From Streptococcus infantarius subsp. infantarius ATCC BAA-102 (GTDB lineage Bacteria > Bacillota > Bacilli > Lactobacillales > Streptococcaceae), in the NCBI RefSeq assembly GCF_000154985.1, contig NZ_DS572684.1, positions 1-64,000 of the forward strand: a DNA stretch of 64,000 bases. Reading direction: 5' to 3'. Below the pieces are notes generated by a model. That model was given only the letters and a program-made list of their open reading frames with translations, was not told the DNA's origin and searched no databases. A program made the position numbers and the translations under genes. Below, in pieces: positions 26,150 to 62,794 of this stretch; the first letter of the stretch is position 1; each line of letters begins with the position of its first letter.

Positions 26150-26303
26150 GTTATAGTTAAAAACTATAACAAATTCTAAGTGCATAGTTAAAAATTATAG
26201 CAAAGCATAAAAATATAGAATGGCTAGAACCATTGAAAAATAAAGGTTTATCGTTTAAAATATTAACTATAAAATTTTTGGATTGTATAGTTTTAAACTA
26301 ATA
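26150..26303 (+). promoter_or_regulatory. metE promoter region with multiple MET boxes
   Basis: A perfect palindrome with 9-bp arms GTTATAGTT/AACTATAAC around AAA lies at 26150-26170. A degenerate copy lies at 26182-26201. A half-site TTAACTATAA is at 26263-26272, and TATAGTTTTAAACTA is at 26286-26300. These match the streptococcal MET box (TATAGTTT-N-AAACTATA) recognised by MetR/MtaR. TTAACT (26263) and TATAGT (26286), 17 bp apart, may be the core promoter. Activation by the regulator encoded at 97-1014 is the natural inference. Confidence 0.75.
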
Positions 26304-53969: not shown

Positions 53970-54884
53970 CTAGAAAAGTTGACTCTTGTCTGAGAATTCT
54001 TTTAAGCTGAGTTTGATTTCATTGATGAAACTTGCTCCGATATCAGAGAGTTTTTTCTTACGATTAGTCACATAACCTAGTGTGTGTTTAGGACTATTTT
54101 GCAAAGGTATGAGAACAATCTGGTCTTTAACAAAACTATTAACAATGCCAAGACCTGAAGCGTAAGCGTCTGTTGCACAGAGTAAATTCATGACAGTTCC
54201 ACGGTCATTGCTGTAGAGAATGCGTTGTTGGTCATGAATATCAAGAGCATCTTCATCAAAATTCAGTCCAGAATGTTCTTGACGAAAGCGTATTTGATTA
54301 TAGCCTTTTAAGTCTGTTTCTGAAATGACAGATTTGTGAGCCAATGGATGATCACGGCGTAAAAAGACACGCGTTGGAAATTCGCCAAGCGAGGTAAATT
54401 CCAAATCATGATATTGCAAAGCTGATGTTAAAATATGTTCATTCTCATCATCTAGGTAAATAATCCCAAGGTCAGCTTCAAAAGAAGCGACACTGTCCAA
54501 GACTTTTTTAGTGGTCGTTTCAATGGTTTGAAATTCCTGATAATCCTGCTTGAATTCTTGGGCGACTTTAGCAAGAGGAATCGAGAGAAAATCATAGTGG
54601 TGTGAGGCAACCGTAAAGCTTTTTTTGAATTCGTCATGATAGCGTTGCTGCAGCAAATCCAATTCACCAATGATACGCTTAGCATATTTCAAAAAATCAT
54701 GACCGTCTTCGGTTAAGCGAGCCCCTGTATTGGAGCGCGTGAAGAGTTGAACACCTAATTCATTTTCTAAATCTTTAATTGAGCAAGACAAGTTGGGCTG
54801 AGTCATGTATAATTCCTTAGCAGCTTGGCTAAATGAGCCTACACGAGCGACGACTTCGACATAACGACATTGTTGGAAATTCAT
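53970..54884 (-). CDS. LysR-family regulator, HomR type
   Basis: Regulator of 304 aa, paralogous to the MtaR-type protein at the left end (shared QPSLS/QPNLS recognition helix, [16 protein letters not shown] and IIYL.. segments). It is divergent from a micro-protein gene and the amino-acid transporter operon at 55.4 kb. In S. mutans HomR, a paralogue of MetR and CysR, activates the cystine transporter operon tcyDEFGH, as I recall; the five-gene layout here fits. Three palindromes near its likely targets are candidate binding sites. LysR is certain, HomR is inferred from context. Confidence 0.85.
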   Translation of the reverse strand: MNFQQCRYVEVVARVGSFSQAAKELYMTQPNLSCSIKDLENELGVQLFTRSNTGARLTEDGHDFLKYAKRIIGELDLLQQRYHDEFKKSFTVASHHYDFLSIPLAKVAQEFKQDYQEFQTIETTTKKVLDSVASFEADLGIIYLDDENEHILTSALQYHDLEFTSLGEFPTRVFLRRDHPLAHKSVISETDLKGYNQIRFRQEHSGLNFDEDALDIHDQQRILYSNDRGTVMNLLCATDAYASGLGIVNSFVKDQIVLIPLQNSPKHTLGYVTNRKKKLSDIGASFINEIKLSLKEFSDKSQLF

Positions 54885-55027
54885 AAAACATCATCCCTTC
54901 TTGTAATAATTGTTACTTATTATAGATAAAAAAGATTAAAAAATCAGCAAAATTCTGATAAGAATATCTAAAGCCTTGATAAAAAAATCCTATAGCGGGT
55001 GATAAATGACCTTAATTATTACTTGAT

Positions 55028-55084
55028 TTTATGGCTAGTGATAAAAAGAATAGATTTTTCTAAAGTAGCATAAGCTGTTACAAT
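55028..55084 (+). promoter_or_regulatory. LysR-type box 1 and promoter of the micro-protein
   Basis: Palindrome-like TTTATG-GCTAGT-GATAAA (55028-55045), then AATAGATTTTTC (55049-55060), and the -10 box TACAAT (55079-55084). No good -35 is seen, as expected for an activator-dependent promoter. Confidence 0.6.
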
Positions 55085-55117
55085 AAGCTTAGAAAGCTAC
55101 TCGGAGGTGAGGTGTCA

Positions 55118-55312
55118 ATGCTCTTAACAGAAAAGCACTTAAGAAATAGCTCAATTGCTGTTACAATTATTCTTGTCATATCTCTTCTTATTTTTTTAAA
55201 ATTTTCTTCCTTTAAAGCCTATCAAACTAATAAAGAATCATCTCAAATTCGAAAGGAAGACATTATTCGCATTAATAGTCTAAAGAGTTTGACACATTTA
55301 CCTTATGAGTAA
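55118..55312 (+). CDS. Small single-TM protein, 64 aa, function unknown
   Basis: I do not recognise this protein. From ATG 55118 (GGAGGTGAGG about 9 nt upstream; in-frame GTG at 55112) it encodes 64 aa. One hydrophobic helix covers about residues 12-30, followed by a polar, basic tail of about 34 aa. It has its own promoter, a LysR-type box and a strong terminator, so it is a separate short transcript between the HomR-type gene and the transporter operon. In S. mutans I recall a small unnamed gene at the same place. It may be a regulator or accessory of the transporter; a pure leader-RNA role is also possible. Confidence 0.6.
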   Translation: MLLTEKHLRNSSIAVTIILVISLLIFLKFSSFKAYQTNKESSQIRKEDIIRINSLKSLTHLPYE

Positions 55313-55314
55313 AA

Positions 55315-55350
55315 AGAAAGCTGAGAAAAGTTTCTTAGCTTTCTTTTTTT
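55315..55350 (+). terminator. Terminator after the small ORF
   Basis: A 14-bp stem AGAAAGCTGAGAAA/TTTCTTAGCTTTCT and T7. Confidence 0.85.
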
Positions 55351-55374
55351 GGCTTTTTGTTATCATAACTCATT

Positions 55375-55434
55375 TTTATGGCTGAGCATAAATAAAATAG
55401 ATTTTTCAAGACTTCTAAAGCGTGATAGTATAAT
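55375..55434 (+). promoter_or_regulatory. LysR-type box 2 and promoter of the transporter operon
   Basis: Perfect inverted repeat TTTATG-GCTGAG-CATAAA (55375-55392), the 12-mer AATAGATTTTTC (55396-55407) at the same 3-nt offset as in box 1, and TATAAT (55429-55434) without a clear -35. Confidence 0.68.
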
Positions 55435-55465
55435 TGCCATACCAAATGAAAAGGAGATTACGCTA

Positions 55466-56497
55466 ATGACAACAAAGAGAGAATGGGTTTTAAAAGCATT
55501 TAAAAATGAAACAGTTGACAAGGTTCCAGTCGGCTTCTGGTATCACTTTACAACTGATGAGGAACGAAGTGATGGTTTTAATCCAGAAATTTTTAATAAA
55601 AATATTGCTGGTCACAAAAAATTTGTCGCTGACGTTAATCCTGATTTTGTCAAAATCATGAGTGATGGTTTCTTCACTTATCCAAACGAACAAATTCGTG
55701 AAGGAATTACTTCCATTAAAGAACTCAAAGGTATCACATCAATCGGTGAAAATCATCCATGGATTGAAAAGCAAATTGAGCTCGCTAAAAAAATCCGTGA
55801 CGATTTTCCTGAAGATATTGCCTCTTTTTATAATATTTTTGCCCCCGCGACTTATCTCAAATGGCATCTCGCAGGAAAAGGTGGTAATGGTGATACGATT
55901 ATCGAAAATTTTATCAAAGAAGATGCTGAATTGACAAAACAAGTTTTGGATGTGATTGCTTTTGATATCGGAGTTTTGACAAAACGCTTAATTGAAGAAG
56001 CTGGGGTTGATGGCATTTATCTCAGTGTTCAGAATTTGCAGGATTCACGTTTGAGTCATGGCGAATACGATCACGTGATTAAACCGAGTGAACTCCATAT
56101 TTTGCATCGTGCTATTTCAGCAGGTGGAACAAACATTCTTCATATCTGCGGTTATGAAGGGGCTACCAATGATATTTCTTACTATACAGATTATCCAGCA
56201 GATGTCATTAATTGGGCGATTGAATTGGAAGGTGTTAGTCTAGCAAAAGGGCGTCAGCTATTTGGTGGCAAAACTGTTCTTGGTGGTTTTAACAATACAG
56301 AGTCGGGTCTTTTGTATAAAGGTAGTAAAGAAGCCATTCAAGCAAGAGTCAGAGAATTGCTTAATGAAACTGGACATCAAGGCGTGGTTATCGGAGCTGA
56401 TTGCACAGTTCCAAGTGATATTGCATCAGAGCGTATTGCTTGGGTCAAAGAAGCCGTCGCAGATGAACTTGTTCTCAAAGAAGCAGTCGGATTTTAG
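55466..56497 (+). CDS. UroD-fold Zn-thiol methyltransferase-like protein (TcyD position)
   Basis: The 343-aa protein belongs to the uroporphyrinogen decarboxylase superfamily. It is unlikely to make haem precursors, because streptococci lack that pathway. It carries the H-x-C...C zinc pattern of MtaA/MtbA-type and MetE-type thiol methyltransferases: H226 and C228 in LHICGYE, and C313 in GADCTVP. ATG 55466 has AAGGAG 9-10 nt upstream; upstream in-frame codons are not supported. It leads an operon with a binding protein, two permeases and an ATPase (TcyDEFGH layout of S. mutans). I infer a role in methyl-thiol or sulfur-compound metabolism coupled to uptake; the substrate is unknown. Confidence 0.75.
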   Translation: MTTKREWVLKAFKNETVDKVPVGFWYHFTTDEERSDGFNPEIFNKNIAGHKKFVADVNPDFVKIMSDGFFTYPNEQIREGITSIKELKGITSIGENHPWIEKQIELAKKIRDDFPEDIASFYNIFAPATYLKWHLAGKGGNGDTIIENFIKEDAELTKQVLDVIAFDIGVLTKRLIEEAGVDGIYLSVQNLQDSRLSHGEYDHVIKPSELHILHRAISAGGTNILHICGYEGATNDISYYTDYPADVINWAIELEGVSLAKGRQLFGGKTVLGGFNNTESGLLYKGSKEAIQARVRELLNETGHQGVVIGADCTVPSDIASERIAWVKEAVADELVLKEAVGF

Positions 56498-56549
56498 AGA
56501 TTTCGGAAATCAAGGAAAGTTTTAGGTAAAAAGAAAAGGAGTGGGGTAT

Positions 56550-57413
56550 ATGAGTAAGAAAAAATGGATTATTTCAGGTGGAGTTGTTTTAGCGATTGTG
56601 GCAGCGACAGTTGTGGGACGTCAATTAACAGGTAAGACATCAGCAAGTGCAGACAGTTCACAATCAAGTTCTGATAAAGTGACGACCTTACAAGTCGCTC
56701 ACACTCAAAACTATGTCCCTTATGACTTTGTTAATGATAAAGGGGAAAGTGATGGATTTGAAGTTGCGGTCTTAAAAGCCGTAGATGATAAATTAAAAAA
56801 TTATAAATTTGAATACACTGGGACAAGTGATGAAGATTTGTTAATCGGACTTGAATCTGGCAAGTACGACATCGGAGTCAAAGGTGCTTGGTACACTGAA
56901 GAACGCGCCCAAAAATTTGTTATTCCTGACCAAGCTATCGGAGCTAGTGTGATTGGCTTTGCTGTTCGAAAAGCTGACGAAAACAAATATAAAGATATTG
57001 ATTCCTTTGCTAAAGCAGGTGGTAAATTAGTTCCAATCTCACCACAAAACGCACAGTATAATGTTATTCAAGAATACAACAAAAAAGCTAAACACCCGAT
57101 TGAACTCAAAGAATCTGAAAGCTTCTCAGTTGCTGACGCATATGCTTGGGTTCTTGAAGGTCGTTACGATGCTTATTTCTCAATTAAATTGTCATTTGAA
57201 GAAGCCGTCCAAAAAGAAGACGGTGCTTATCATCAATACGCTGATCAATTGACATGGTTCCCATATAAGGGAATTGAAACTTACCCATTGATTCATAAAA
57301 ATGATACTAATAAAGCATTTGCAAAAGAATACGATAAAGCCATCAAGGAATTGCAAAAAGATGGCACAATCGCTAAACTTTCAAGAAAAATACTTTGGAG
57401 AAGATGTCTTTAG
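56550..57413 (+). CDS. Amino-acid ABC transporter substrate-binding protein, altered C-terminus
   Basis: Extracellular solute-binding protein family 3, 287 aa. An N-terminal hydrophobic segment (about 5-23) has no lipobox Cys, so it is membrane-anchored or cleaved by signal peptidase I. The binding domain starts LQVAHTQNYVPYDFVND. ATG 56550 has AAAGGAG about 9 nt upstream. The last residues (SRKILWRRCL) do not fit the family. An extra A at about 57383-57384 shifts the frame; without it the end would read SEKYFGEDVFSYVTD and stop at 57430. So the last 9-10 residues are altered, by mutation or sequence error. Likely cystine or related sulfur amino acid as substrate, from context. Confidence 0.85.
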   Translation: MSKKKWIISGGVVLAIVAATVVGRQLTGKTSASADSSQSSSDKVTTLQVAHTQNYVPYDFVNDKGESDGFEVAVLKAVDDKLKNYKFEYTGTSDEDLLIGLESGKYDIGVKGAWYTEERAQKFVIPDQAIGASVIGFAVRKADENKYKDIDSFAKAGGKLVPISPQNAQYNVIQEYNKKAKHPIELKESESFSVADAYAWVLEGRYDAYFSIKLSFEEAVQKEDGAYHQYADQLTWFPYKGIETYPLIHKNDTNKAFAKEYDKAIKELQKDGTIAKLSRKILWRRCL

Positions 57414-57438
57414 TTATGTAACAGATTAGGAGGTACCT

Positions 57439-58131
57439 ATGGTTTCTTATGAACCGTCTCGTGTAATAAGAGTAATTCCAGATATTTTATCAGCTCTACC
57501 TCTTACCTTATGGGTCTTGGCATTAACTGTTTTGTTAGGAAGTTTATTAGGTTTCTTGTTAGCTTATGCACAACTATCAGACGAACATGGCTTTTCCGTT
57601 TTAGCTAGAGGCTATGTCTTTATACTAAGATGTACACCACCAATTGTTCTTATCTTCCTTGTTTTTTATGGTTTACCTCGTTTTTTAGAATGGTGGTTAG
57701 GGATTGATGTAAATGGCTGGTCACGTTCGATATTTGTGATTTTAGCAATGACTTTGCTCTTTGCGGCAAGTATTTCAGAAGTCTTTAAATCTTCGTATTT
57801 AGCCTTGCCAAAAGGTCAACTAGAAGCTGGTCTTAGTATTGGTTTAAGTGAGCCGCAGACTTTTGTGCGTATTCTTTTGCCACAAGCTTTCAGAATTGCC
57901 CTTCCTAACATCACTAGTGCGGTGATTAATTTATTAAAAGATATTGCACTTGCCTATACGATTGGTTTGGTGGATTTGATGGGTGAAGGCAACCTCATCA
58001 TTTCTAGAAATATGGGCAATTATTCATTAGAAACTTACACAGCGGTTGCCGTTATTTATTGGATTTTAGCACTGATATTATCTGTAGTGACTCATATTGT
58101 CGAAAATCAATTGGAAACAAAAGGGGGCTAA
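57439..58131 (+). CDS. Amino-acid ABC transporter permease 1
   Basis: HisM-type permease of 230 aa with about five hydrophobic helices. The EAA-like loop is SLALPKGQLEAGLSIGLSEPQ-like at about 123-142. Partner of the next permease. AGGAGGT precedes the ATG. TcyF position of the S. mutans operon. Confidence 0.9.
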   Translation: MVSYEPSRVIRVIPDILSALPLTLWVLALTVLLGSLLGFLLAYAQLSDEHGFSVLARGYVFILRCTPPIVLIFLVFYGLPRFLEWWLGIDVNGWSRSIFVILAMTLLFAASISEVFKSSYLALPKGQLEAGLSIGLSEPQTFVRILLPQAFRIALPNITSAVINLLKDIALAYTIGLVDLMGEGNLIISRNMGNYSLETYTAVAVIYWILALILSVVTHIVENQLETKGG

Positions 58132-58141
58132 GGAGGAGATT

Positions 58142-58825
58142 ATGGATTTTTCTTATATTGTTGAAACATTTGTTAAAGCCCTTGCTGGTATTCCAGTGAC
58201 GCTTGGCATTATGGTGGTTTCCATTTTGTTGAGCTTTTTCCCAGCTCTTTTCTTGGCAATTGGTCGTATCTATAAGGTAAAAGGTGTAACTACTTTTTCA
58301 GTGATATACCTTGCTTTTATCCGCTCTACGCCAGCTATTTTATTAATTTTATTCTTTTATAGTTTATTTCCTAGTTTATTAAACCAATTTTTAAAAGCTC
58401 TTGGCATCAATATTTTTGAGTTAAATCCGATTTATTATGCCTATGTTATCTTTGGACTTATGACAACTGGGAGTCTTTCAGAAATTATTCGCTCTGCAAT
58501 TTTGACGGTTAATAAGGGGCAGTTAGAGGCAGCTCTTGCGATCGGTTTGACGGCAAAGCAGGCTTATCTGAGAATTGTCTTTCCCCAAGCCATTCGTCAG
58601 GCATTGCCAAATCTCTGTAATTTGGTGATTAATCTTGTCAAAGGTACCTCTCTTGTTTTTGTGATGACAGTGAAAGATATTACAGCGATAGCGAAAGTGG
58701 AGGCGGCTTATGGTTATCATTATTTTGAATCTTATTTTGTTATTTTCATTATCTACATTGTTATATGTGGAGTGATTCAGTACATCTTTAAATTTCTGGA
58801 AAAACAAAGCCAACTGGTGGGATAA
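58142..58825 (+). CDS. Amino-acid ABC transporter permease 2
   Basis: HisM-type permease of 227 aa, with EAA loop VNKGQLEAALAIGLTAKQAY near residue 122. I start at ATG 58142, after AAGGAGGAG; upstream in-frame codons overlap permease 1 and precede the ribosome site. Forms a heterodimer with permease 1. TcyG position. Confidence 0.9.
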   Translation: MDFSYIVETFVKALAGIPVTLGIMVVSILLSFFPALFLAIGRIYKVKGVTTFSVIYLAFIRSTPAILLILFFYSLFPSLLNQFLKALGINIFELNPIYYAYVIFGLMTTGSLSEIIRSAILTVNKGQLEAALAIGLTAKQAYLRIVFPQAIRQALPNLCNLVINLVKGTSLVFVMTVKDITAIAKVEAAYGYHYFESYFVIFIIYIVICGVIQYIFKFLEKQSQLVG

Positions 58826-58840
58826 TGTGAGGAGAAATTT

Positions 58841-59599
58841 ATGCTAACAGTTAAAAATATTGAGAAATCTTTTGGAGAAAAGAAAGTTTTAGATGGGATT
58901 AGTTTGACGGTTAATCAAGGAGATGTTGTCGTTATTTTGGGACCATCGGGATCAGGAAAAACAACCTTTTTAAGGTCATTAAATTATTTAGAACATGCGG
59001 ATTCGGGTGAATTAGAACTGGATGGAAAGACTTATGATTTAGCTAAAATCAACCGCAAAGATGTGCTAGAGATTCGTAAAAAGACTGCTTTTGTTTTTCA
59101 AAATTATAATCTGTTTGCTAATAAAACAGCGCTTGAAAATATTTTAGAAGGTTTGGTGATTGCCAGAAAAGTTCCAAAGGAAAAGGCAATTCCTATTGCT
59201 GAAAATGCCCTAAAAAAAGTAGGACTTCTTGATAAAAGGGATTATTATCCAAGTCAGTTATCAGGTGGTCAGCAGCAACGTATTGGGATTGCGCGTGCTA
59301 TTGCTGTTAAGCCAGAAGTGATTTTGTTTGACGAGCCGACGTCAGCACTTGACCCTGAATTAATCGGTGATGTTCTTGATGTCATGAAAGAATTGGCGCA
59401 AGAAGGAGTAACCATGGTTGTCGTGACGCATGAAATGAGTTTTGCACGTGATGTCGCAACGCATGTTATTTTTATGGAGGGTGGGCATATCATTGAAGAA
59501 GGTGACCCGAAAGAATTCTTTACACGACCAAAAGAAGAACGCACAAAACAATTTTTGACACGGATTATTCCAGAATTAAATATTGACCCAGTGATATAG
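58841..59599 (+). CDS. Amino-acid ABC transporter ATP-binding protein
   Basis: Polar amino-acid ATPase of 252 aa: Walker [12 protein letters not shown] (about 33-43), signature [15 protein letters not shown], Walker [19 protein letters not shown] lies upstream of the ATG. Last gene of the five-gene operon (TcyH position). Confidence 0.93.
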
Positions 59600-59685
59600 A
59601 TGGCTCTTCTGAAATTATTGAAAAAGAAAAAGTAAAAAGCTATGTTATGACTGGTTTTATCAACTGAACTAACTACCTAAATAAA

Positions 59686-59715
59686 AGGAGGCTGATACAT
59701 TTCAGCTTCTTTTTA
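59686..59715 (+). terminator. Terminator after the first amino-acid ABC operon
   Basis: Stem GAGGCTGA/TCAGCTTC with 6-nt loop and T-run. Upstream, 59600-59685 has no supported gene. Confidence 0.75.
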
Positions 59716-59736
59716 AGTGTTGTGCTATAAAAAATA

Positions 59737-59793
59737 CTTATGGCACAGCATAAAATATTTAGAGTACACGACTATAGAAGAATTCTTTATAAT
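59737..59793 (+). promoter_or_regulatory. LysR-type box 3 and promoter of the second amino-acid ABC operon
   Basis: Inverted repeat (C)TTATG-GCACAG-CATAA(A) at 59737-59754, and TATAAT at 59788-59793 with no clear -35. Spacing to the -10 is like boxes 1 and 2. Confidence 0.65.
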
Positions 59794-59819: not shown

Positions 59820-60503
59820 ATGTTAGATTGGGGCTTTGTTTATGAGAATATTCCCTTGTATCAACAAGCTTTGGTGCTTACGATTCGTTTGGCTCTATTT
59901 GGCATCTTGGGAGCGATTATTTTAGGCTTTTTCATTAGTTTGATTAAGTACTACAATGTAGCTATTTTAAGTCAAATTTGCCAGATTTATATTGAATTGT
60001 CTCGTAACACGCCGCTTTTGATACAGCTTTATTTTCTCTATTATGGCTTGCCTAAAGTTGGAGTGGTTTTACCATCGGAGCTTTGTGCGATTGTTGGTCT
60101 AATCTTTTTAGGTGGTTCTTACATGGCGGAGTCATTTCGTTCAGGGTTGGAAGCAGTGTCCAAAAGACAGTATGAAGTTGGTTTGAGCATCGGATTATCA
60201 CATCTTCAGAATGTTTTTTATGTCATCCTTCCTCAAGCAATCGCAGTTGCACTTCCGTCGTTGGTTGCTAATATCATCTTTCTTGTCAAAGAGACGTCTG
60301 TCTTTTCAATTGTTGCACTTGCTGATTTGATGTACATTGCTAAGGATTTGATTGGACTTTATTATGAGACCGATGAGGCATTGTTAATGTTGGTAGTTGC
60401 TTACTTGATTATTCTTTTACCGATTTCACTATTGGCAAGGATACTAGAAAGGAGGTTGCATCATGCAGGTTTCAGGACTCCAGGTGCTGTTTCAGGGAAA
60501 TAA
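59820..60503 (+). CDS. Amino-acid ABC transporter permease A
   Basis: HisM-type permease of 227 aa. Conserved features are ELSRNTPLLIQLYFLYYGLPK and the EAA loop VSKRQYEVGLSIGLSHLQ near residue 115. TTTGGAGG precedes the ATG. Its 3' end overlaps permease B by 41 bp. Confidence 0.9.
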   Translation: MLDWGFVYENIPLYQQALVLTIRLALFGILGAIILGFFISLIKYYNVAILSQICQIYIELSRNTPLLIQLYFLYYGLPKVGVVLPSELCAIVGLIFLGGSYMAESFRSGLEAVSKRQYEVGLSIGLSHLQNVFYVILPQAIAVALPSLVANIIFLVKETSVFSIVALADLMYIAKDLIGLYYETDEALLMLVVAYLIILLPISLLARILERRLHHAGFRTPGAVSGK

Positions 60504-61140
60504 TCTTTTGCGACTCCTTAAAGGACTGTTAGTTACGATTAATATTTCCCTAGTGTCCATTCTTATTTCAGTGGTTTTAGGATTCTTGTTTGGTTTTATA
60601 ATGATTTCACGCTTTAGAGTGATTCGCTTTATTTCACAAATCTATCTAGAATTTATTCGAATCATGCCACAATTAGTCTTGCTCTTTCTTGTTTATTTTG
60701 GTTTAGCTAGAACTTTTAATCTCAATTTATCTGGTGAAGTAGCAGCACTTATTGTCTTTTCAATGTGGGGAACAGCTGAGATGGGAGATCTTGTTCGCGG
60801 AGCGTTGACATCACTACCAAAACACCAAATTGAAAGTGGTCTTGCTCTGGGATTAAACAATCGACAGTTATTCATTTACGTTGTTATGCCACAAATTTTA
60901 CGACAATTATTACCCCAAGCGGTTAACCTAATGACACGAATGATTAAAACAACGTCATTAATTGTTTTGATTGGTGTTGTCGAAGTGGTAAAAGTTGGTC
61001 AAGAGATTATTGAAGCTAATCGTTTGACGGTACCTAGCACCGCAATTTGGATTTATGGCTTAATCTTTATGATGTATTTTGCTGTTTGTTTTCCAATCTC
61101 GAGATTGTCAGTTTATTTAGAAAAACGTTGGAAGGAGTGA
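60463..61140 (+). CDS. Amino-acid ABC transporter permease B
   Basis: HisM-type permease, 225 aa. EFIRIMPQLVLLFLVYFGLAR and EAA loop LPKHQIESGLALGLNNRQ. The ATG at 60463 follows AAGGAGG; it lies within the end of permease A, so translation is coupled. Confidence 0.9.
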   Translation: MQVSGLQVLFQGNNLLRLLKGLLVTINISLVSILISVVLGFLFGFIMISRFRVIRFISQIYLEFIRIMPQLVLLFLVYFGLARTFNLNLSGEVAALIVFSMWGTAEMGDLVRGALTSLPKHQIESGLALGLNNRQLFIYVVMPQILRQLLPQAVNLMTRMIKTTSLIVLIGVVEVVKVGQEIIEANRLTVPSTAIWIYGLIFMMYFAVCFPISRLSVYLEKRWKE

Positions 61141-61145
61141 ATCAT

Positions 61146-61892
61146 TTGGCAACAATTTTAGAACTTAAAGATATTGAAAAATCTTATGGCGAGCAAAAGA
61201 TTCTCAATCAAGTTTCATTTTCCGTTGAAGAGGGTGAAGTTTTAGTCATTCTAGGTCCATCAGGTTGTGGAAAATCAACATTACTTCGTTGTATCAATGG
61301 TTTGGAACCAATTCAAGCAGGAAGAGTTGAACTTGAAGGCAAGGAAATTTTAAAAGAGTCTAAAAATCTTCCTCTTGTTCGCCAAAAAATCGGCATGGTA
61401 TTTCAATCCTACGACCTTTTCCCACACTTAACAGTTCTAAAAAATCTTTTATTAGCACCAGTAAAGGTTCAAAAAAGGTCAGTAGAGGAAGTGAAGGACG
61501 ATGCATTAAAACTACTTAAGCGAGTTGGTTTAGAAGGAAAAGAAAATAGTTATCCTCACGAGTTATCTGGCGGTCAGATGCAAAGGGTTGCTATTGTGAG
61601 AAGTTTACTTTTAAATCCTGAAGTGCTTCTATTTGATGAAGTTACAGCGTCACTTGACCCTGAAATGGTTAGAGAAGTTTTAGAGTTGATTGGGGAACTT
61701 GCACATGAAGGTAGGACAATGATTATTGTGACGCATGAGCTACAGTTTGCAAAAGCGATAGCAGATCGTGTGATTTTTCTTGAAAAGGGACAAATTGTAG
61801 AAGAAAGTGATGCGAGATTATTTTTCAGGCAAGCAAAAACTCAACGTGCGCGTGATTTCTTGAGTGTCTTTGATTTTTCTACAGTTGGTTAA
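61146..61892 (+). CDS. Amino-acid ABC transporter ATP-binding protein
   Basis: Polar amino-acid ATPase of 248 aa. Walker A GPSGCGKSTLL (about 34-44), signature LSGGQMQRVAIVRSL, and Walker B VLLFDEVTASLD, where Val replaces the usual Pro. I start at TTG 61146 (ATILELKDIEKSYG follows), with GGAAGGAG 6-7 nt upstream; the longer ORF upstream overlaps permease B and lacks similarity. Confidence 0.92.
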   Translation: MATILELKDIEKSYGEQKILNQVSFSVEEGEVLVILGPSGCGKSTLLRCINGLEPIQAGRVELEGKEILKESKNLPLVRQKIGMVFQSYDLFPHLTVLKNLLLAPVKVQKRSVEEVKDDALKLLKRVGLEGKENSYPHELSGGQMQRVAIVRSLLLNPEVLLFDEVTASLDPEMVREVLELIGELAHEGRTMIIVTHELQFAKAIADRVIFLEKGQIVEESDARLFFRQAKTQRARDFLSVFDFSTVG

Positions 61893-61921
61893 ATAGGTAA
61901 TAAAATTTTAAGGAGTTATAT

Positions 61922-62794
61922 ATGAAAATTGTAAAACGTTTTTTAGCGATTGTTAGTCTTTTATTAATTGTTTTTGCTGCAGGATGCTCAACTTCAAAAT
62001 CCTCAACAACTAAAAATTCATCTTCAGCTACGTCAACAGCCAAAGCTCGCTCTCTTGATGCAATCAAGAAGAGCGGTACCATTAAAATTGGAGTTTTCTC
62101 AGATAAAAAACCGTTTGGTTATGTTGATGACAAAGGAAAATACCAAGGATATGATATTTATTTTGCAAACCGTTTAGCAAAAGATTTGGGAGTTAAAGTT
62201 AAATATGTTTCAGTGGACCCAGCAAGTCGTGTTGAGTATTTGACATCAGCTAAAGTAGATATTATTCTTGCCAACTTTACAGTGACTGATGAACGTGCGA
62301 AACAAGTTGATTTTGCTTTGCCATACATGAAAGTAGCGTTAGGTGTCGTATCGCCAAGTAATCAATTAATTTCTGACGTTGATGCTTTAGAAGGAAAAAC
62401 TTTGATCGTTGGCAAAGGAACGACAGCTGAAACATACTTTGAAAAACATTATCCAAAAGTAAATCTTTTAAAATTTGATCAGTACAGCGAAGCATATCAA
62501 GCACTGTTAGATGGTCGAGGTGACGCTCTATCAACTGACAATACAGAAGTTTTAGCATGGGCTTTGGAAAATAAAGGTTACAAAGTTGGCATTACAAGTT
62601 TGGGTGACACAGATACCATTGCTCCAGCAGTTCAAAAAGGAAATACTGAGCTTCTTGATTGGATTAATGATGAAATTAAATCTTTGGGTGATGAAAACTT
62701 CTTCCACGAAGACTATGACAAGACATTAGCTCCAGTTTACGGTGATGCTGCAAAAGCAGATGACTTGGTTGTAGAGAGTGGTGAAGTTGATTAA
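61922..62794 (+). CDS. Amino-acid-binding lipoprotein
   Basis: Family 3 solute-binding protein of 290 aa. The lipoprotein signal peptide ends in the lipobox FAAGC with C22 as lipidation site, followed by a Ser/Thr linker and the binding domain starting at about residue 55. AAGGAG precedes the ATG. Part of the second ABC operon; cystine, cysteine or glutamine-like substrates are plausible, and the LysR box upstream favours a sulfur compound. Confidence 0.92.
   Translation: MKIVKRFLAIVSLLLIVFAAGCSTSKSSTTKNSSSATSTAKARSLDAIKKSGTIKIGVFSDKKPFGYVDDKGKYQGYDIYFANRLAKDLGVKVKYVSVDPASRVEYLTSAKVDIILANFTVTDERAKQVDFALPYMKVALGVVSPSNQLISDVDALEGKTLIVGKGTTAETYFEKHYPKVNLLKFDQYSEAYQALLDGRGDALSTDNTEVLAWALENKGYKVGITSLGDTDTIAPAVQKGNTELLDWINDEIKSLGDENFFHEDYDKTLAPVYGDAAKADDLVVESGEVD

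Follow-up and report, generated by a model that had tools for sequence, protein, structure and literature searches.

What regulates the two amino-acid transporter operons and the small gene that lie, each behind a copy of the same palindrome, close to a LysR-type regulator gene of Streptococcus infantarius subsp. infantarius ATCC BAA-102? The DNA examined here, called the window, comprises 64,000 nucleotides (contig NZ_DS572684.1, positions 1 to 64,000), and all coordinates are positions within it. An earlier reading made from its letters alone (the sequence-only reading) described the palindrome as a new-looking operator. It assigned to the LysR-type protein encoded at 53970-54884 a regulon of three units: a microprotein gene, an operon resembling tcyDEFGH and a second amino-acid ATP-binding cassette (ABC) operon. 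Comparison across the genus makes it very probable that this protein is the HomR of this S. equinus-group Streptococcus, and that it activates the three units via a composite operator.

The palindromes themselves are readily confirmed. Read directly from the window, the site at 55375 (TTTATGGCTGAGCATAAA) matches TTTATG-N6-CATAAA exactly, and the sites at 55028 (TTTATGGCTAGTGATAAA) and 59737 (CTTATGGCACAGCATAAA) each carry one mismatch, as had been claimed. Three further claims were borne out as well. The -10 boxes lie 33, 36 and 33 nucleotides past copies 1, 2 and 3; a simple sigma-70 scan of the window listed no -35 partner for any of them, in line with the proposed lack of a good -35; and the 12-mer said to be common to copies 1 and 2, AATAGATTTTTC, occurs in the window at 55049 and 55396 only. 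When one mismatch is allowed, the window contains just the three copies, and shuffled sequences contain a mean of 0.73 matches, with three or more in 4 of 100 shuffles. When two are allowed, the eight matches in the window are at the level of chance (shuffle mean 9.4). By itself, the palindrome motif is weak and mildly unusual evidence; its conservation is strong evidence.

The regulator has the domain content of the LysR type (PF00126, 9.5e-21; PF03466, 1.3e-13), and its closest named matches are from S. equinus Sb05 (98%) and S. vicugnae (97%). A close orthologue (E ≤1e-75) is encoded by 43 of 284 genomes of the genus, which are termed HomR+ here, the other 241 being HomR-. Weaker matches of about 31-38% identity are widespread in the genus and were taken as paralogues. 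In a tree, the genus orthologues group in a single clade (42 rows; support 100/98); three enterococcal rows are adjacent to it, and the paralogues fall elsewhere. The connection to S. mutans is provided by one genome, G157, which contains the decapeptides published as the C-termini of S. mutans SMU.932, 933, 961 and 962 (PMC10782952). C-termini of the tcyDEFGH-like operon match SMU.932/933-type peptides in mutans-group genomes, and SMU.932-936 are described as predicted amino acid ABC transporters (PMC10900908). The homR-tcy arrangement of G157 (L119) is that of the window. Tree clade, arrangement and peptides together make the window protein an orthologue of the LysR protein that S. mutans-like genomes encode next to tcyDEFGH. 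For that S. mutans gene we take HomR to be the name, in keeping with the published target list.

The sequence-only reading had proposed a search for the motif upstream of orthologous streptococcal operons. A symmetric matrix was built for this from homR-upstream sites: the top-scoring site at 60-330 nucleotides was taken from each of 42 regions (all but that of G253), and the best 28 were used. Because selection was by score, the scores of these 28 carry no evidential weight. In shuffled intergenic stretches, the 99th percentile is 11.5 and the highest score 16.6, and simulated sequence gives 0.17 matches of at least 14 per 64 kb. In the tests below, a score of at least 12 counts as a box unless another cut-off is given. 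Copies 1, 2 and 3 score 23.2, 21.8 and 14.7, and a spot before metE scores 15.2.

The box tracks the regulator, including at operons far from homR. A strict pattern, YTTATRGYNNRCYATAAR, is found in 30 of 43 HomR+ genomes versus 24 of 241 HomR- genomes (25 versus 9 without AGT..ACT sites). The operon for a CMD protein and an acyl-CoA-dehydrogenase-like protein (SMU.961-962 type) has a box in 17 of 19 HomR+ genomes, missing in G299 and G247, versus 0 of 31 HomR- genomes (31 of 43 carriers, 11 + 20). Before orthologues of the second ABC operon, the counts are 9 of 18 versus 0 of 22 (of 75 HomR- genomes), and G133, G061 and G104 have the box though their operon is not beside tcy. For tcyD, a box is present in 28 of 30 HomR+ genomes (the misses are G247 and G205, the latter with only 74 nucleotides upstream) versus 0 of 8 HomR- genomes (of 79), in a test that shares sites with the training set wherever tcyD is next to homR and that includes one doubtful match over a start codon (G292). 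Three genomes in which tcyD is not beside homR are independent positives (G219, 16.9; G220, 23.1; G295, 18.1). These three are among the genomes whose homR region has no box of its own, and they carry the box elsewhere, before tcyD and the dehydrogenase operon.

Other units follow the same pattern. The thiosulfate importer gene tsuA (E ≤1e-60) is found only in HomR+ genomes (13 of 43 versus 0 of 37 HomR-), with upstream scores of at least 12 in 8 of 13 and at least 10 in 11 of 13. Orthologues of a third solute-binding protein (at least 61%) are likewise present in 12 of 43 HomR+ and 0 of 37 HomR- genomes; among 11 upstream regions, 8 score at least 12 and 10 at least 11, and G299 has no box. 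Homologues of this protein at 40-44% have no box in 6 of 6 cases tested. A box precedes a unit encoding a solute-binding protein, a GNAT protein and a GST protein. For metB, a score of at least 10 is reached in 17 of 43 HomR+ versus 2 of 30 HomR- genomes (G066, at the start codon, and G098). Upstream of homR itself, 28 of 42 regions score at least 15.6, one scores 13.0 and the other 13 score 10.2 or less; a box at homR was therefore rejected as a universal feature. The sites, their composite layout and conservation, and the way they accompany HomR across several operons and numerous species are direct observations. This genus-wide co-occurrence supports the proposal of a three-unit regulon of the adjacent LysR protein.

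Operators of LysR-type regulators typically have a T-N11-A dyad near -65 and a second element near -35. The sequence-only reading had assigned the palindrome to such a dyad. The 18-base-pair palindrome is not itself one, because its length is even; it joins two half-sites of a larger array. The part of the claim that holds is the dyad near -65, which consists of the palindrome's left arm and an upstream half-site at a distance of 13 nucleotides from the palindrome's first base. In a set of 53 sites that includes the window copies and excludes metB, this half-site matches GCYATAA at one fixed offset with a mean of 5.89 of 7 positions, versus 1.55-2.75 at 19 other offsets, and it constitutes independent support because the matrix had not used those bases. 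If the -10 hexamer is assumed to start at -12, simple arithmetic places the centre of GCYATAA-N7-TTATRGC at about -66. The dyad thus has the fixed offset and position of a LysR-type operator, with a weak half-site at copy 1 (4 of 7, compared with 5 of 7 at copy 2 and 7 of 7 at copy 3).

In the alignments, the palindrome is followed by a second element composed of AAA, a short A/T stretch and AGATTATRCAAG. A chosen set of 59 sites, from six operon types and the three window copies, gives the downstream consensus aAA.atAGATTat.CAa and then Tg.TA..ATA, and the best -10 match lies 33 nucleotides past the palindrome in 37 of the 59. The metB sites deviate (AATAGAATAG, with the -10 at 43-44 nucleotides). 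Judged from these alignments, each of the three sites forms the central part of a composite operator: a GCYATAA-N7-TTATRGC dyad, a further GCYATAA, a AGATTATRCAAG-like element over the -35 position and then the -10. The 12-mer shared by copies 1 and 2 is, on the same grounds, a part of the predicted operator, and copy 3 has a diverged form of it. The features of the region are as follows.

53970..54884, minus strand: predicted homR, LysR-type regulator; HTH_1 and LysR substrate-binding domains (Pfam); orthologues in 43 of 284 genomes; tree clade
54976..54996, plus strand: candidate CysR/CmbR box between homR and copy 1; 17/21 to the CmbR consensus of PMC5131005; kept in L093-L098
55015..55021, plus strand: copy 1 upstream half-site, ATTATTA; weak match to GCYATAA
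55028..55045, plus strand: copy 1 palindrome, microprotein promoter
55052..55063, plus strand: copy 1 second element, AGATTTTTCTAA
55079..55084, plus strand: -10 of the microprotein promoter, TACAAT
55118..55312, plus strand: microprotein of 64 residues; one hydrophobic stretch by eye; no family
55311..55348, plus strand: terminator-like hairpin 3' of the microprotein gene; 17-pair stem and T run
55362..55368, plus strand: copy 2 upstream half-site, ATCATAA
55375..55392, plus strand: copy 2 palindrome, tcyDEFGH promoter
55399..55410, plus strand: copy 2 second element, AGATTTTTCAAG
55429..55434, plus strand: -10 of tcyD, TATAAT; an alternative, TAGTAT, lies 3 nucleotides earlier, at the position used in other species
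55466..59599, plus strand: tcyDEFGH-like operon; URO-D family protein, solute-binding protein, two permeases, ATPase
59724..59730, plus strand: copy 3 upstream half-site, GCTATAA
59737..59754, plus strand: copy 3 palindrome, promoter of the second ABC operon
59761..59772, plus strand: copy 3 second element, diverged, AGAGTACACGAC
59788..59793, plus strand: -10 of the second ABC operon, TATAAT
59820..62794, plus strand: second amino-acid ABC operon; two permeases, ATPase, solute-binding protein (family scan of three of these four)

We infer that HomR is the binder and an activator, as well as its dimer arrangement, its inducer and its place in a cascade in this species. One HomR dimer would recognise GCYATAA-N7-TTATRGC about 66 base pairs before the transcription start, and a second dimer would occupy the next GCYATAA together with the AGATTATRCAAG-like element lying over the -35. 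The inducer would be O-acetylserine or O-acetylhomoserine. Inducer-bound HomR would then recruit RNA polymerase to promoters that have a -10 and no good -35, so that the microprotein, tcyDEFGH and the second amino-acid ABC importer would come under its control in the window. The homR gene itself is probably switched on by CysR/CmbR.

The alternative that survives best is that another LysR paralogue, above all CysR/CmbR, binds these sites alone or with HomR, so that the link to HomR is indirect or shared. The published CmbR consensus, GYGATAAAAAWWAYTTATMAC (PMC5131005), is built on ATAA-N7-TTAT, the same T-N11-A skeleton as that of the HomR box. Its best match in the window, 18/21 at 59724, overlaps copy 3, and matches of 17/21 and 16/21 are found at 54976-54996 and overlapping copy 2. 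The whole window holds 17 matches to this consensus of at least 16 and two of at least 17, and the window scan gave none of at least 16 at the copy 1 palindrome. The HomR box differs in its outer GCY/RGC, the added half-site, the AGATTATRCAAG element and the ties to HomR presence. Moreover, paralogues of this group are widespread in the genus, yet the HomR- genomes examined have no box before the same operons (0 of 31, 0 of 22 and 0 of 8). This absence favors HomR over CysR/CmbR, and we regard control by the paralogue, alone or jointly with HomR, as possible though unlikely.

The matches to the CmbR consensus nevertheless count against HomR control of the three units, as do several other results. 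The HomR- samples are partial and the genomes related, so that p-values overstate the case. The second ABC operon has no box in 9 of 18 HomR+ genomes, 13 of 42 homR regions lack an upstream site of at least 12, and metB is weak at that cut-off (8 of 43 HomR+ versus 1 of 30 HomR-). Genome G098, which is HomR- by the cut-off used, has boxes before metB (10.7) and before a panE-like gene. Among enterococcal and other order-level relatives of the regulator, no site of at least 11 was found in 6 loci. Finally, HomR is listed at metEF in PMC3616900, which also has CmbR controlling homR, and this listing conflicts with the lack of a conserved box at metE.

The region upstream of metE was examined in 27 HomR+ relatives, and 0 of 27 reach a score of 12 (highest, 11.5). 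The spot at 26194 was therefore rejected as a fourth window copy; a MET box of the TATAGTTAAAAACTATA type ends there. The MET box of MetR/MtaR is of the TATAGTTTNAAACTATA type. Like the HomR box, it is a LysR-family operator in the same metabolic field, and in the window it stands before metE; a direct reading of the three copies upholds the claim that their sequence differs from it.

A second alternative, that HomR binds the sites and mainly represses, is very improbable. Repression by CmbR is reported for S. pneumoniae (PMC5131005), but the promoters downstream of the sites lack a -35, and the same paper has S. mutans HomR as an activator. Least credible of all are chance palindromes or a functionless local promoter duplication, as the three-match shuffles and the identity of copies 1 and 2 at 51 of 90 aligned bases might suggest, since conservation over species and unrelated operons refutes chance.

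Activation by HomR agrees with what is published for S. mutans, where CysR turns on homR, and where metBC, tcyDEFGH and thiosulfate genes are under positive control by HomR (PMC5131005). In the HomR+ genomes examined, the box stands before all three of these target classes (tcyD, tsuA and metB). The two systems share a LysR regulator beside tcyDEFGH-type genes, the metBC, tcyDEFGH and thiosulfate targets (with the box in the relatives examined), and, probably, CysR above homR; the window adds the microprotein as a unit of its own along with a second ABC operon, and in other species the CMD/dehydrogenase operon has the box. The description of the motif as new-looking was weakened by PMC13160496, according to which a 2010 paper on S. 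mutans HomR reported two conserved motifs at its targets. A HomR motif is probably in print already, presumably with much of the present core, although no account of HomR among those examined spells out the box; the operator is better resolved here, and the predicted regulon wider. The name HomR, as used in RegPrecise (PMC3616900, PMC7051946), may cover more than one protein and could denote another paralogue; an L. lactis protein also bears it (PMC7051946).

The composite operator can be scanned for in streptococci, and a motif found in three copies thus becomes a testable regulon in which the SMU.961-962-type pair gains a predicted regulator and a sulfur context. A comparable system is the ytmI operon of Bacillus subtilis, which is controlled by the LysR regulator YtlI and serves the salvage of S-substituted cysteine, with a cystine-type importer and GNAT, M20 and flavoenzyme partners. 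The window would have a similar LysR control of a cystine-type importer; the gene order differs, and the window has a URO-D family member.

It is possible, though doubtful, that HomR acts as a master switch in the scavenging of unusual organic sulfur compounds beyond cystine. In this reading, one composite operator joins tcyDEFGH with its URO-D protein, the SMU.961-962-type CMD/acyl-CoA-dehydrogenase-like pair, the solute-binding protein-GNAT-GST unit beside an M20 peptidase, and the thiosulfate importer. With the same reservation, shared control could largely explain why SMU.932, 933, 961 and 962 rise without ClpX, rather than four separate degradation signals. In a clpX mutant, these four are among the ten most raised proteins, and they are treated as ClpX substrates, with support from green fluorescent protein (GFP) tags (PMC10782952). 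A search of the main text of that paper did not find the terms mRNA, qRT-PCR or transcript level. In G157, the two operons that hold these SMU-type genes both have a HomR box (20.8 and 23.8). Higher HomR activity in the clpX mutant may be an addition to the substrate reading or a replacement for it; the two are not mutually exclusive.

The microprotein is one of the weaker points of the proposed regulon. Its promoter combines the palindrome and the second element with a -10 that is preceded by TG and lies at 33 nucleotides, but the upstream half-site is weak; the microprotein has a match in only 9 of 42 homR regions. No NCBIfam or Pfam match was found for it. In 6 of 6 pairs computed, which overlap, the nonsynonymous rate (dN) is lower than the synonymous rate (dS). 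The gene looks like a transcription unit of its own because the hairpin with its T run separates it from tcyD; terminator-like sites in the region as a whole are no more numerous than in shuffles. The aligned mutans-group genomes have one HomR promoter directly before tcyD. The arrangement in the window may stem from duplication of a promoter, the small gene lying between the two copies, and loss of the gene elsewhere fits too. In L095, from a close relative, the microprotein frame stops after 26 residues, and the palindrome before it is present.

Repeated promoters are also found in G215 (L125, L206), where one identical 18-mer, TTTATAGCAGTCCATAAA, is found upstream of both tcyD and the gene for the third solute-binding protein. 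By its sequence, this is a second example of a putative HomR promoter duplication. A CTTATGGCTAGCTATAAA-type site occurs before a gene for a 2-dehydropantoate 2-reductase-like (panE-like) protein in L192, L193 and L194, and in G098 too. HomR- genomes such as G186 and G116 have two adjacent URO-D family matches each, and no HomR box was found within 420 nucleotides of the one examined.

In the window, the tcy solute-binding protein (56550-57429) ends KILWRRCL in its own frame, and the next frame, EKYFGEDVFSYVTD, resembles the normal end of its relatives. This suggests a frameshift near the 3' end of the gene, either real or a sequencing error. By eye, the open reading frames just before homR resemble an alarmone synthetase and a two-component pair, presumably the neighborhood found in S. 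mutans as well. A plasmid search and an Rfam search found nothing.

Two kinds of look-alike sites were set apart. AGT-N2-ACT sites such as CTTATAGTTCACTATAAG were rejected as members of another family; by eye, several lie beside MerR-like genes (L188, L196, L202, L203) or beside genes of the same neighborhood (L184, L187), in HomR+ and HomR- genomes. The 18-mer TTTATGGTATACTATAAG is found three times inside repeated small open reading frames of G148 (L200) and in other HomR- genomes, and is apparently a coding repeat and not an operator. A sister palindrome, CTTATAGT-N2-ACTATAAG (L184, L187, L188, L196, L202, L203), lies beside MerR-like regulators and amidohydrolase-like and other genes, where it probably marks another regulon.

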